Origin: Sneathiella marina
Lineage (GTDB): Bacteria; Pseudomonadota; Alphaproteobacteria; Sneathiellales; Sneathiellaceae
DNA: 64,000 bases
Assembly (NCBI RefSeq): GCF_023746535.1
Contig: NZ_CP098747.1
Span: 2,192,501 to 2,256,500 of the forward strand
Reading direction: 5' to 3'
Below, piece after piece: positions 15,318-19,864 of the stretch. The notes under the pieces are model-generated. The model was not told the origin of the DNA and did no database searches. It saw only the letters and a list, made by a program, of their open reading frames with translations. How positions within the stretch are numbered: the stretch's first letter is position 1; each line of letters begins with the position of its first letter. The position numbers were made by a program, and so were the translations under genes.

Positions 15318-18300
15318 CTAAATATCATGAACATCAATGACTCCCGGCACAAATTTCAATGCCTGCCTCACCTCGGGAGAAATATTAAAGTGACTGGAAA
15401 GATCGATTTCAATCTCCCGTGCTTCAGCCTCAATATTTAGCACTATGGCCACGCGTCCTCGTCCCTTGCCCCCTTCATTTAAAACTGAAGCAAGCTGTTC
15501 AATGGGTTTATCGTCATCCACGAAAATCCGAACACCATCTGTTATATTGGCGGCCATCGTTTCAAGCCGCTGGATACCCTGAACTGTAAGTCTCGGTTGT
15601 TCGTTATCAAGGTTACCTGTCACATTCAGAACCAGAGACTGCCCAACAACCAAAAGTTCACGGCTTCTTTCCAGCGTTTCAGCAAACATTGTTACTTCAT
15701 AAGCTCCGCTGCTGTCGGATAATTGAACAAAAGCGAGAGGTTTGCCCTTGCGGGTTCGTAATTCTCGTTTTCCCATTACTGTGCCAGCGAGCTTAGCCGC
15801 ACTTTCCGAAACGCCCAAACTTGCAACATATGCCGCAGAATTTCGTACACCTACTTTATCCAATGTCTTCGCCCAGGCATCCAGGGGGTGACCGGATAAG
15901 TAAAAGCCAACCGCATCGAACTCCTGCTTTAACTGTTCCATGGTGGTCCAGCGTGACACAATTGGGAGTAACGGTGTCGCCACAACGCTTTCAGTCTCGC
16001 CGCCAAATAAATTAACTTGGCCGGAATCTCGTTCCTGTTCCGCTTGCTGTGCTTGCCGAAGCAGCATTTCTATTGACGCAAATACCTGTGCCCGATCACC
16101 GGACAGTGCATCAAACGCCCCTGCCCGGCATAAGTTTTCTGCCTGTCGTTTATTCATATGTCTCGGGTTAAGACGGTTCGAAAAATCGAACAGATCTTTG
16201 TACTGCCCGTTTTTCTGACGATCACTAATAATACCCGCCATGGCTTCACGGCCAACATTCTTGACAGCCGCCAAAGCGTAACGCACTGCGCCGACGTCGC
16301 CTTCAAACTCCACAGAAAATTCAACCTCAGAGTTATTCAGGCAAGGGGGATGCACCGGGATCTTCATGCGATCCAGATCTTGCCGGAATATATTCAGTTT
16401 GTCGGTATTGTTTAAATCCAGACTCATGGACGCCGCCATGAATTCCACCGGATAATTCGCCTTCAAATATGCAGTGTGATAAGAGACAAGTGCATAGGCC
16501 GCTGCGTGGGATTTATTGAAACCATAATTGGCAAATTTCGCCACGAGATCAAAGATATGACTGGCATCCTTCGTCGTCACACCCTTTTCTTTCGCGCCTT
16601 TGGCAAAAATAGAACGTTGCTCATCCATTTCGGATTGGATTTTCTTACCCATGGCCCGGCGCAGCAAATCTGCATCGCCAAGACTATATCCTGCCAGGGT
16701 CCTGGCAATTTCCATCACCTGTTCCTGATAGATGATGACACCATAAGTTTCTTCCAATACGGATTTGAGCTGCGGATGTAAGTAATCCGGCTTTTCTTCC
16801 CCATGTTTCCGGCGGATATAAGTTGGAATGTTCTCCATCGGTCCCGGACGATAGAGTGCGACGATCGCAATGATATCCTCGAAAGCGTCAGGGCGCATTT
16901 TACGCAGCATGTCGCGCATGCCCGAACTTTCAAGCTGGAAAACGCCGATTGTATTTCCGGTTGAAAGTAGATCAAAGGTTGCCGGGTCATCCAGCGGGAC
17001 TTTGGCATAATCAATTTCAATACCCCGCTTGGCCAGCAAATCCTTCGCCCTATCCAGGACGGTCAGTGTCTTCAGGCCCAGGAAGTCAAACTTAACCAAT
17101 CCGGCCGCTTCTGCGTATTTCATGGAAAACTGTGTCACCGGCATATCGGAACGCGGATCCCGATAAAGCGGTACCAGCTCATCCAGTTCCCGATCCCCAA
17201 TGACCACGCCCGCCGCATGCGTGGAGGCATGCCGGTACAAGCCTTCCAGCTGCAAAGCAATTTCGATCAAGCGGGCAACTTCCGGATCTCCAGCACGCTC
17301 TTCACGCAGGCGGGGTTCCGTATCCAATGCTTCTTGCAATGTGACAGGGTTTGCAGGATTGGCAGGAATCATCTTACTAATCCTGTCAACCTGGCCATAG
17401 GGCATCTGCAGGACACGCCCAACATCCCGGATAGCGGCTTTCGCCTGCAACTTTCCGAATGTGATAATTTGAGCCACTTGCTGGTGACCGTATTTATCCT
17501 GAACATAACGGATAACTTTTTCCCGCTTGTCCTGACAGAAATCGATATCAAAATCCGGCATGGACACCCGTTCAGGGTTTAGAAACCGTTCAAACAGCAA
17601 TCCAAATCTTAAAGGGTCAAGATCAGTGATGGTAAGTGCCCATGCGACAACAGAGCCAGCACCCGAACCACGCCCCGGCCCAACCGGGACATTATGTTCC
17701 TTAGACCATTGGATAAAGTCCGAAACAATAAGGAAATATCCCGGAAACCCCATCTCATTGATGACACCAATTTCGTAATTCAAACGATCAAAATATTCCG
17801 TACTCTTCTCGGCCCTTTCATCTTCCGACATTTCGGCTGTAAAAACTTCGTTTTCCATCCGAATGTGCAATCCCTTATTGGCAAGGGCCTCCAGCTCCGC
17901 TGCCTCATCGCGTCCATCCGCAGACGAAAAAGTCGGCAGAATGGGATCATGCCTTTTCGACGCAACGGCACATCTTTGTGCAATAACAATTGTGTTATAA
18001 ACAGCTTCAGGTAAATCCTCGAACAAGGACGCCATATCAGCCTGTGACTTAAAGAAATGTTCAGGTGTTCTTTTGATACGATCTGAATCACCGACATATT
18101 TTCCGTCAGCAATACATATCAATGCATCATGGGCGCTGTACATTTCCTTATTTGGGAAAAACACCTCGTTTGTTGCAACTAACGGGATATCCATTTCGTA
18201 GGCCAATTTCAGAAAACCCGGCTCCGTCTTCCGCTCAACGGCTAAACCGTGGCGTTGAATTTCAACGTATAAGCGGTTATCGAAGATGTCCTGTAAGTTG

Positions 18301-18845
18301 CCAACATATTTCTCGGCATCTTCGATTTGATCGTTTGCCAGAAGCCGCCCAATTGGGCCTTCAGCACCGCCTGTAAGACAGATGACGCCTTCTGCATGCC
18401 TGGTTAATACTGAAATGTCGACTTGTGCTGTATCGCCCGCATCAGTTTTCAAAAAAGCATGAGACGTTAATTTCAGAAGATTATGATAACCCGTTTCGTT
18501 TTGCGCCAACAAAACAACCGGATCCGGTTCTGGTCTACGACCAGATCTATCTGCCGCATCCTTTCGGGTAAGAGCGATTTGGCATCCAAGAATGGGCTGA
18601 ACACCCCCCGCTTGCATTGCCAGTGAAAACTCCAATGCCCCAAACATATTGTTGGTGTCCGTTATTGCAGCGGCGGGCATATTGTTCGTTTTGCACAGCT
18701 TAACAATATCTTTTACCGGCACAGCCCCTTCCGAGAGAGAATACGCGGAATGCAATCGCAAATGAACAAAATTGTGAGGAGCATTGGGTGCAGACCCAGT
18801 TTGAGGCACGGGCAAATTCTCCAGTAGTGATTTCAGCCGTCCCAC
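15318..18845 (-). CDS. dnaE: DNA polymerase III alpha subunit
   Basis: This is the replicative C-family polymerase. The 1175-residue protein has an N-terminal PHP domain (HLRLHSAYSLSEG, about 27-40), the palm with catalytic aspartates in PDFDIDFCQD (about 427-436), the fingers, a helix-hairpin-helix region (about 840-880), an OB-fold (about 1000-1075) and a C-terminal tau-binding part. The length and its place next to lolDC match DnaE1 rather than the error-prone ImuC/DnaE2. The start is GTG with AAGGG about 11 bases upstream. Its 5' region is unusual: an SOS-type promoter with a micropeptide gene and a DnaA box lie directly upstream, with no terminator visible. Confidence 0.97.
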   Translation of the reverse strand: MGRLKSLLENLPVPQTGSAPNAPHNFVHLRLHSAYSLSEGAVPVKDIVKLCKTNNMPAAAITDTNNMFGALEFSLAMQAGGVQPILGCQIALTRKDAADRSGRRPEPDPVVLLAQNETGYHNLLKLTSHAFLKTDAGDTAQVDISVLTRHAEGVICLTGGAEGPIGRLLANDQIEDAEKYVGNLQDIFDNRLYVEIQRHGLAVERKTEPGFLKLAYEMDIPLVATNEVFFPNKEMYSAHDALICIADGKYVGDSDRIKRTPEHFFKSQADMASLFEDLPEAVYNTIVIAQRCAVASKRHDPILPTFSSADGRDEAAELEALANKGLHIRMENEVFTAEMSEDERAEKSTEYFDRLNYEIGVINEMGFPGYFLIVSDFIQWSKEHNVPVGPGRGSGAGSVVAWALTITDLDPLRFGLLFERFLNPERVSMPDFDIDFCQDKREKVIRYVQDKYGHQQVAQIITFGKLQAKAAIRDVGRVLQMPYGQVDRISKMIPANPANPVTLQEALDTEPRLREERAGDPEVARLIEIALQLEGLYRHASTHAAGVVIGDRELDELVPLYRDPRSDMPVTQFSMKYAEAAGLVKFDFLGLKTLTVLDRAKDLLAKRGIEIDYAKVPLDDPATFDLLSTGNTIGVFQLESSGMRDMLRKMRPDAFEDIIAIVALYRPGPMENIPTYIRRKHGEEKPDYLHPQLKSVLEETYGVIIYQEQVMEIARTLAGYSLGDADLLRRAMGKKIQSEMDEQRSIFAKGAKEKGVTTKDASHIFDLVAKFANYGFNKSHAAAYALVSYHTAYLKANYPVEFMAASMSLDLNNTDKLNIFRQDLDRMKIPVHPPCLNNSEVEFSVEFEGDVGAVRYALAAVKNVGREAMAGIISDRQKNGQYKDLFDFSNRLNPRHMNKRQAENLCRAGAFDALSGDRAQVFASIEMLLRQAQQAEQERDSGQVNLFGGETESVVATPLLPIVSRWTTMEQLKQEFDAVGFYLSGHPLDAWAKTLDKVGVRNSAAYVASLGVSESAAKLAGTVMGKRELRTRKGKPLAFVQLSDSSGAYEVTMFAETLERSRELLVVGQSLVLNVTGNLDNEQPRLTVQGIQRLETMAANITDGVRIFVDDDKPIEQLASVLNEGGKGRGRVAIVLNIEAEAREIEIDLSSHFNISPEVRQALKFVPGVIDVHDI

Positions 18846-18901: not shown

Positions 18902-18910
18902 TGTGGATAA
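18902..18910 (-). promoter_or_regulatory. Perfect DnaA box upstream of dnaE
   Basis: The minus strand reads TTATCCACA, the consensus DnaA 9-mer, 57 bases before the dnaE start and 33 bases after the stop of the micropeptide gene. A single box can occur by chance, but its place in the dnaE leader suggests control by DnaA. No second box was seen nearby. Confidence 0.5.
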
Positions 18911-18942: not shown

Positions 18943-19050
18943 TCAGCTCGTAAAACTCGAAACGATTTCCGCCCAAAAAAACATCGTGCCTAGAGCACTA
19001 CCAAATGCTGCCGTTTCAAATCCGCTTTTTATCATCTGGTATATGTTCAT
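18943..19050 (-). CDS. SOS-type micropeptide, 35 residues, probably membrane-inserted
   Basis: A 36-codon frame starts with ATG at 19050-19048 and ends with TGA. AAAGGAG lies six bases before the ATG, one of the best Shine-Dalgarno sequences in the window. The product has a short N-terminal arm (MNIYQMIKSG, with Lys8), then a largely hydrophobic stretch from about Phe11 to Phe33 broken by Glu12 and Glu28, with a GxxxG motif at Gly17-Gly21 and the cluster MFFW at 23-26; it ends SFTS. Directly upstream is a promoter with an embedded alphaproteobacterial LexA box. By size, likely topology and regulation it resembles the 29-residue Caulobacter SOS division inhibitor SidA, but homology is not shown. 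I infer a DNA-damage-induced membrane peptide. It is too short for standard gene callers. Confidence 0.72.
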   Translation of the reverse strand: MNIYQMIKSGFETAAFGSALGTMFFWAEIVSSFTS

Positions 19051-19075
19051 CACTCGCTCCTTTATGGTTGAGCTT

Positions 19076-19104
19076 ATAATGTTCTTGTTTTGTTCTTTTG
19101 TCAA
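19076..19104 (-). promoter_or_regulatory. SOS promoter with LexA box (GTTC-N7-GTTC)
   Basis: The minus strand shows TTGACA (19104-19099), a 17-base spacer and CATTAT (19081-19076). The spacer and first base of the -10 contain GAACAAAACAAGAAC, that is GAAC-N7-GAAC at 19095-19081, exactly the direct-repeat LexA site known for Alphaproteobacteria. LexA bound here would block RNA polymerase. The predicted start, near 19069, leaves a leader of about 19 bases before the micropeptide ATG. Confidence 0.8.
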
Positions 19105-19168: not shown

Positions 19169-19864
19169 CTATGAGATCGAAGATTCGTCTTCAATAAGAT
19201 GATGATCCCGAACATGGATAACTCTATCCATTCGCGCAGCCAGTTCAGTATTATGGGTTGCAACCAAGGCCCCGACATTTTGATCCCGTACCAAATCTAA
19301 GAATTGCTGAAATACTAACTCCGCTGTTTGCTCATCAAGATTTCCCGTTGGCTCATCAGCGAGCAGGAGCACAGGGTCGTTTGCTAACGCACGTGCAATA
19401 GCAACACGTTGTTGCTCTCCACCAGACAGCTTTGCGGGACGATGAGATAATCTGTCCTGTAACCCCATGCGGGTCAGCAGCTTCGTCCCTTTTTCCCGAG
19501 CGAGCGATTTAGGCACTCCGGCAATCAGGTTTGGCATCATGACATTTTCAAGGGCGGAAAACTCGGGCAGCAAATGATGAAACTGATATACGAACCCAAT
19601 TTGATTGCGTCTCACTTCTGTACGTTTACTGTCATTGGAGTTGCTGCAATCAACACCAGTAATCCAGACAGATCCTGTCGTCGGCGGTTCTAACAGGCCG
19701 GCAATCTGAAGCAAGGTAGATTTTCCTGAGCCGGATTGGCCCAACAGTGCAACGATTTCTCCGGGTGCAATTTCCAATGCCACATGATCAAGCACCAGAA
19801 GGTCTTCATGCCCTTGTGAGAACACGCGCCCAACGTCAACAAGTTTCAAGACAGCATCACTCAT
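19169..19864 (-). CDS. lolD: Lipoprotein-releasing ABC transporter ATP-binding protein
   Basis: LolD powers release of lipoproteins from the inner membrane to the LolA carrier. The 231-residue ATPase has Walker [10 protein letters not shown] (residues 42-50), signature [15 protein letters not shown], Walker [13 protein letters not shown] and the switch histidine in ATHN. The H-loop and Q-loop ([17 protein letters not shown]) match the MacB/LolD subfamily. It starts eight bases inside the 3' end of lolC, so the two are translated together. It is the last gene of the run that begins with proS. Confidence 0.95.

Follow-up and report, generated by a model that had tools for sequence, protein, structure and literature searches.

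A candidate membrane micropeptide gene with a LexA-type promoter box in Sneathiella occupies the same slot upstream of dnaE as sidA

Background

The closest described system is SidA of Caulobacter crescentus. In the available part of PMC4211646 SidA is presented as an inner-membrane protein of 29 residues with FtsW as an interaction partner and, in two-hybrid assays, FtsN too; its action is suppressed by mutations in FtsW and FtsI. Low-confidence models put SidA on TM7 of FtsW (PMC13396833, accessible sections), and a LexA box in Caulobacter is given as GTTCttgttatGTTC in the available portion of PMC12700426. DidA of Caulobacter is also small, bitopic and damage-induced and inhibits the FtsW/I/N stage, but it has 71 residues, is induced by DriD and not through LexA, and binds FtsN (PMC4211646, same part). 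The Gram-positive proteins YneA, ChiZ, SosA and DivS are likewise SOS-induced, membrane-anchored division inhibitors, and YneA acts on FtsW (PMC13396833, accessible sections); they are unrelated to the peptide described here and have extracellular C-terminal parts, with LysM in YneA and ChiZ (PMC6851548, available extract). The literature searched, apart from the 2011 SidA paper, which may say more, mentions neither a SidA outside Caulobacter nor a place of sidA beside dnaE.

Here we analyze a short frame in a 64,000-nucleotide stretch (the window) of the Sneathiella marina genome, positions 2,192,501 to 2,256,500 of NZ_CP098747.1, the host genome being a single contig of 4.07 Mb. Like SidA, the Sneathiella peptide is short, with a single helix (predicted in Sneathiella), has a GAAC-N7-GAAC box at its promoter, has its gene immediately before dnaE, behind lolD if lolD is nearby, and carries a basic residue before the helix. 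In contrast to SidA, it has 35 residues instead of 29, lacks the first tryptophan of SidA, has an invariant glutamate (E12), is unmatched by the curated SidA model NF033228 and comes from a lineage distant from that of Caulobacter.

Results and Discussion

The micropeptide gene and its conservation in Sneathiella

The frame lies between lolD and dnaE on the minus strand of the window. Its ATG is at 19050 and its TGA ends at 18943 (18943..19050, minus strand; MNIYQMIKSGFETAAFGSALGTMFFWAEIVSSFTS, stop included), and the ATG follows six bases after a ribosome site AAAGGAG (19057..19063, minus strand). The downstream neighbour is dnaE (15318..18845, minus strand), which matched DNA polymerase III alpha models with 1500.6 bits, and the upstream neighbour is lolD (19169..19864, minus strand), for which LolD was the best NCBIfam model (2.2e-78, below the strict cut-off). 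The coordinates and motifs given in the initial annotation, including TTGACA-N17-CATTAT, the box, the ribosome site and the 35-codon frame, were exact when read directly from the window.

The frame was found in 21/24 Sneathiella genomes, including all 17 with a completeness of 90% or more and a contamination no higher than 5%, and the three genomes without it are assemblies 65, 70 and 84% complete. A single-sequence search of the genus gave the same number as the profile-based count. In all 21 loci the peptide is followed by dnaE. The pN/pS ratio of the frame was 0.32 over all pairs of the 21 sequences and fell to 0.14 among the 41 closest, against 1.57 and 1.36 out of frame, and the two other frames contained stops in 21/21 and 20/21 sequences. 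Conservation thus follows the codons, a check that the initial annotation had proposed, and the frame is under purifying selection at the codon level. We infer translation from this selection, and together with the conservation and the predicted helix it identifies the 35-codon frame, at the level of sequence, as a membrane micropeptide gene.

AlphaFold2, given 12 rows, predicted a single helix from residue 3 to 34 with a mean pLDDT of 93.6. Residues M1, K8, F11, E12, F16, F25, W26 and V30 were invariant in an alignment (A1) of 20 of the 21 Sneathiella peptides, two being identical; two of its rows start at an upstream ATG not chosen by the script and one row has 37 residues. The peptide has no name in Pfam and NCBIfam. 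The GxxxG motif to which the initial annotation had drawn attention occurs in its strict form in only 3/21 Sneathiella peptides, and was dropped as a defining motif.

A contig scan for the peptide returned 18 loci, of which 13 were from Sneathiella, one from a contig titled Sneathiellales and four from contigs with uninformative titles. A single-protein search of 16 genomes of other families gave one match, at E 0.48, and the A1 profile run on 385 genomes of the class gave matches at E 0.012-0.085 in 14 non-Sneathiella genomes, which we read as noise by E-value.

Promoter and LexA-type box

Upstream of the frame, on the minus strand, are a -35 hexamer TTGACA (19099..19104) and a -10 hexamer CATTAT (19076..19081), separated by 17 bases, and transcription probably starts near 19069. 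Both hexamers were recovered in a promoter scan, which is no evidence by itself (2 promoters found against 1.5 expected); across the genus, TTGAC is present in 21/21 loci and the second hexamer starts with CA in 21/21. The putative LexA operator GAACAAAACAAGAACA (19080..19095, minus strand) overlaps the -10 hexamer; it comprises GAAC-N7-GAAC at 19095-19081 and takes in the A at 19080. The box lies within the promoter spacer, in one phase, in all 21 genus loci.

The bare GAAC-N7-GAAC pattern was not enriched in the genome (56+50 sites, compared with 64+53 when the pattern was reversed as a control), and for this reason our case does not rest on it. The exact 16-mer GAACAAAACAAGAACA, on the other hand, has five copies in the genome where about 0.002 are expected. 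One of these identical copies lies upstream of imuA, a gene that matches the ImuA model at 5.7e-11, under the strict cut-off, and has a second dnaE (dnaE2) about 2.4 kb further on. GAAC-N7-GAAC was also found 51-59 bases upstream of the ATG of lexA in 23 loci (21 genomes) of the 24 lexA loci taken from 22 genus genomes, and GAAC-N7-GTAC about 50 bases upstream of the script-chosen start of recA (RecA model, 8.1e-160). Because the same 16-mer stands at imuA and such boxes stand at lexA and recA, the promoter box is very likely a LexA site. The variant GAAC-N7-GTAC, besides preceding recA of the same genome, is found upstream of the peptide in two genomes of family f126 (L288 and L289).

A chance alignment of box, promoter and frame would agree with the bare box pattern being as common as its control, but the joint conservation of frame and box, the codon selection and the fixed promoter phase in 21/21 loci leave it a negligible probability. 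Since frame and box are both conserved across the genus, the frame stands out above chance as a real gene, and chance alignment was rejected. The absence of a conserved frame or box in relatives had been named beforehand as an outcome that would refute the proposal; instead, the box and its promoter phase were kept in 21/21 loci and the frame in 21/24 genomes. The earlier proposal of an unnamed membrane micropeptide under a LexA-type box therefore appears sound on the sequence of these 21 loci and of the boxes at imuA, lexA and recA. All four signals that it had called independent are present, but box and promoter overlap, so that they are not fully independent.

The sidA slot in Caulobacteraceae

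In C. crescentus sidA is presumably CC1927. The available parts of two papers list dnaE of strain CB15 as CC1926 (PMC1839093) and sidA as CCNA_02004 (PMC10769358). Genomes of the Caulobacteraceae were located by PopZ and by DnaE, which matched in 198/199 genomes, and 50 gaps of these 198 were read: 30 belonged to the loci whose DnaE is closest to that of Sneathiella, and 20 came from one genus handle. A SidA-type frame was found upstream of dnaE in 49/50 gaps, a count that used a profile (A2) built from 14 of the same 50 gaps. These frames typically encode 29-30 residues from the nearest ATG; strict GAAC-N7-GAAC was present in the gap in 39 of the 49 loci with a frame, and lolD was no more than 900 bases upstream in 12 of the 50 gaps.

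The PopZ of one genome (G580) was 100% identical to the C. crescentus query, and its gap (L186) encodes a 29-residue peptide that matched NF033228 at 2e-20 over 29/29 positions. The model also matched 14/14 aligned relatives from the family. The match of this C. crescentus-like copy and the gap counts together therefore indicate that sidA adjoins dnaE on its upstream side, giving lolD-sidA-dnaE whenever lolD is nearby, and that the Sneathiella peptide gene sits in the same slot as sidA. That the gene of SidA itself occupies the slot upstream of dnaE is new relative to the initial annotation, which had suggested a comparison of the lolD-dnaE gap in other Alphaproteobacteria.

SidA-like peptides in further families

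Gaps were read at 104 loci of other families, from genomes listed by likeness of their DnaE to that of Sneathiella (the top-ranked of 377 matching genomes out of 387, six of the 377 being Sneathiella). A box followed by a membrane peptide was present in 8/104 gaps, in the families with handles f10, f121, f4 and f126. The SidA-like peptides of these families (L276-L289), of 31-47 residues, share with that of Sneathiella the lolD-dnaE slot, the box in the promoter and an ungapped register, and most have a tryptophan near the end of the helix. Among 58 other-family loci examined with a slightly relaxed pattern, 31 had TTGAC followed by the box after 1-6 bases.

When the Caulobacter profile was run on 2667 translated gap fragments, four of the eight peptides ranked first (E 0.0005 to 0.5) and the other four were not among the matches. 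Compared profile to profile, the Caulobacter group and the eight sequences gave E 2.2e-6 (probability 89%), which places these peptides closer to SidA than that of Sneathiella is to either group. The eight-sequence profile, which is blind to position, was then used on 387 genomes of the class and gave 15 matches at E <=0.0015, eight of them the profile's own sources and seven new. The next gene was dnaE in 13 of the 15, while the remaining two directly follow lolD and lack dnaE in the DNA fetched; the ten next-ranked loci had neither dnaE nor lolD adjacent. One new match, in family f63 (Caulobacteraceae; MARWVRDTLSLASCGGFVWVMWQAALLTSAA), bridges the Caulobacter and eight-sequence groups. NF033228 matched 0/8 of the f10, f121, f4 and f126 peptides scanned, and the range of SidA-like peptides thus seems to be wider than that of the NCBIfam model.

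In two f126 genomes (L288 and L289) lolD stands just before the peptide and the fetched DNA holds no dnaE. Eight other-family loci (L098, L199, L202, L204, L212, L237, L241 and L242) carry a box of the opposite orientation, GTTC-N7-GTTC, 67-101 bases ahead of where the dnaE match begins, and at L224 a GAAC box lies inside lolD.

Common descent with SidA or parallel origin

The initial annotation had left open whether the peptide is a relative of SidA or a parallel invention. A link to SidA is now given by the slot, but the sequence comparison did not settle its nature, since NF033228 (cut-off 35 bits) matched 0/20 Sneathiella peptides even at E 10, and hhalign of the Sneathiella profile with the two SidA-like groups gave borderline values (E 0.021 and 0.026). 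All 20 Sneathiella peptides fitted the SidA-family matrix without gaps and in one register. Of 2457 membrane windows, 1.2% scored as high as their mean on this matrix, as did 0/500 column permutations; these percentages are not strict probabilities, as the null windows overlap and the 20 peptides are related. In a separate permutation test, with background frequencies different from those of the first, a score as high was obtained in 2/1000 free permutations and in 32/1000 when hydropathy classes were kept.

In a DnaE tree whose 34 rows were picked for the similarity of their DnaE, four of the 38 entered loci having dropped out (L114, L117, L157 and L280), Sneathiella fell inside a branch with 100/99 support together with 17 rows without the peptide, and apart from the other holders of the peptide. 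At least two changes are needed on this tree, and one origin is still compatible with it. No sequence intermediates were found in the A1 profile search of the 385 class genomes or among the 18 loci of the contig scan.

On balance we consider descent from a common ancestor with SidA the somewhat likelier origin of the Sneathiella peptide. Common descent is favoured by position, while by the curated model the peptide would not be called SidA. A LexA-controlled membrane peptide may instead have arisen separately in Sneathiella, in the same gap, and it might still stop division through the same or another target. Such an origin would account for the failure of NF033228, the borderline profile scores, a likeness that is partly one of hydropathy, the changes and the 17 peptide-less rows on the DnaE tree, and the lack of intermediates. 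We nevertheless regard it as doubtful, because gap, strand, promoter-box design and size are all common to the Sneathiella and SidA types, one ungapped register serves 20/20 peptides, the tree is compatible with one origin, and the choice of the same gap twice seems unlikely a priori.

A bolder and rather unlikely proposal is that the lolD-dnaE gap gave rise to an SOS membrane checkpoint peptide on two or more occasions, in distant alphaproteobacterial lineages, the place before dnaE being useful in itself. If this were true, a single promoter under LexA control would both halt division and drive transcription onward into dnaE, with a conserved DnaA box between peptide and polymerase gene.

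Proposed function

We judge it likely that the frame is a small gene of the SOS response that encodes a SidA-type division inhibitor, and a SidA-like mode of action is probable. What strengthens this reading is that sidA itself is the gene found just before dnaE in Caulobacteraceae. In the undamaged cell, LexA bound to GAACAAAACAAGAACA, between the two promoter hexamers, would block transcription. On DNA damage, RecA would trigger self-cleavage of LexA and the promoter would open; the 35-residue peptide would then be made and inserted as one helix into the inner membrane, where, like SidA, it would hold the late divisome FtsW/FtsI/FtsN inactive and delay septation until repair. The model supposes LexA binding, induction, membrane insertion and a divisome target in Sneathiella.

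TisB is an SOS single-helix peptide that depolarises the membrane. The Sneathiella product could similarly be an SOS membrane peptide with another job, either depolarisation in the manner of TisB or DinQ or modulation of another inner-membrane protein, and the available extracts on DinQ show that such roles are known for other SOS single-helix peptides. Against such a job speak the position of its gene, where Caulobacteraceae have a known division inhibitor, and the few charges of the peptide, and we consider it improbable.

It is very improbable that the promoter serves mainly dnaE, so that SOS transcripts would run through into the gene for the replicative polymerase and the frame would act as a translated leader. 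That dnaE comes next, on the same strand, that a terminator scan from the frame to dnaE gave no convincing site and that the DnaA-box-like TTATCCACA lies between them in 21/21 loci would fit this arrangement, but the selection on the amino acids of the frame exceeds that of a leader, and in the two f126 genomes the DNA fetched around the peptide has lolD before it but lacks dnaE. The view of the frame as a mere dnaE leader was downgraded because of the codon-level selection. A second role of the promoter, for dnaE, may be compatible with the peptide gene.

In the region scanned for terminators, two terminator-like sites were found against 0.7 expected, and a weak terminator-like hairpin with T-rich DNA lies within the peptide frame (18986-18998, minus strand). 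The DnaA-box-like TTATCCACA is at 18902-18910 (minus strand), between the peptide stop and dnaE, and control of dnaE by DnaA through it is possible.

If the preferred reading, a SidA-type division inhibitor, holds, an SOS division brake of this kind may exist well beyond Caulobacter, and so divergent a peptide points to positions that may matter, namely the basic residue before the helix and the tryptophan near its end. Where homology search fails, the slot before dnaE offers a synteny rule to find peptides of this type, and the question of how SOS division inhibitors arose in Alphaproteobacteria can be tested directly.

Other copies of the box in the Sneathiella genome

An identical copy of GAACAAAACAAGAACA (L010 / L041, G000:C1:3036880-3036895) is found some 245 bases ahead of an mraZ-like gene at the head of a division and cell-wall cluster. 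Another copy of the 16-mer (L039, G000:C1:887121-887136) stands between a divergent PA0069-family radical SAM gene and a 216-residue frame, and may serve either of them. At L043, L044 and L050 the 16-mer or near copies of it stand in front of genes that by eye only have a VOC-fold and phosphoenolpyruvate-mutase-type look, at a distance of 26-28 bases measured from within the box; these are possible unusual SOS genes.
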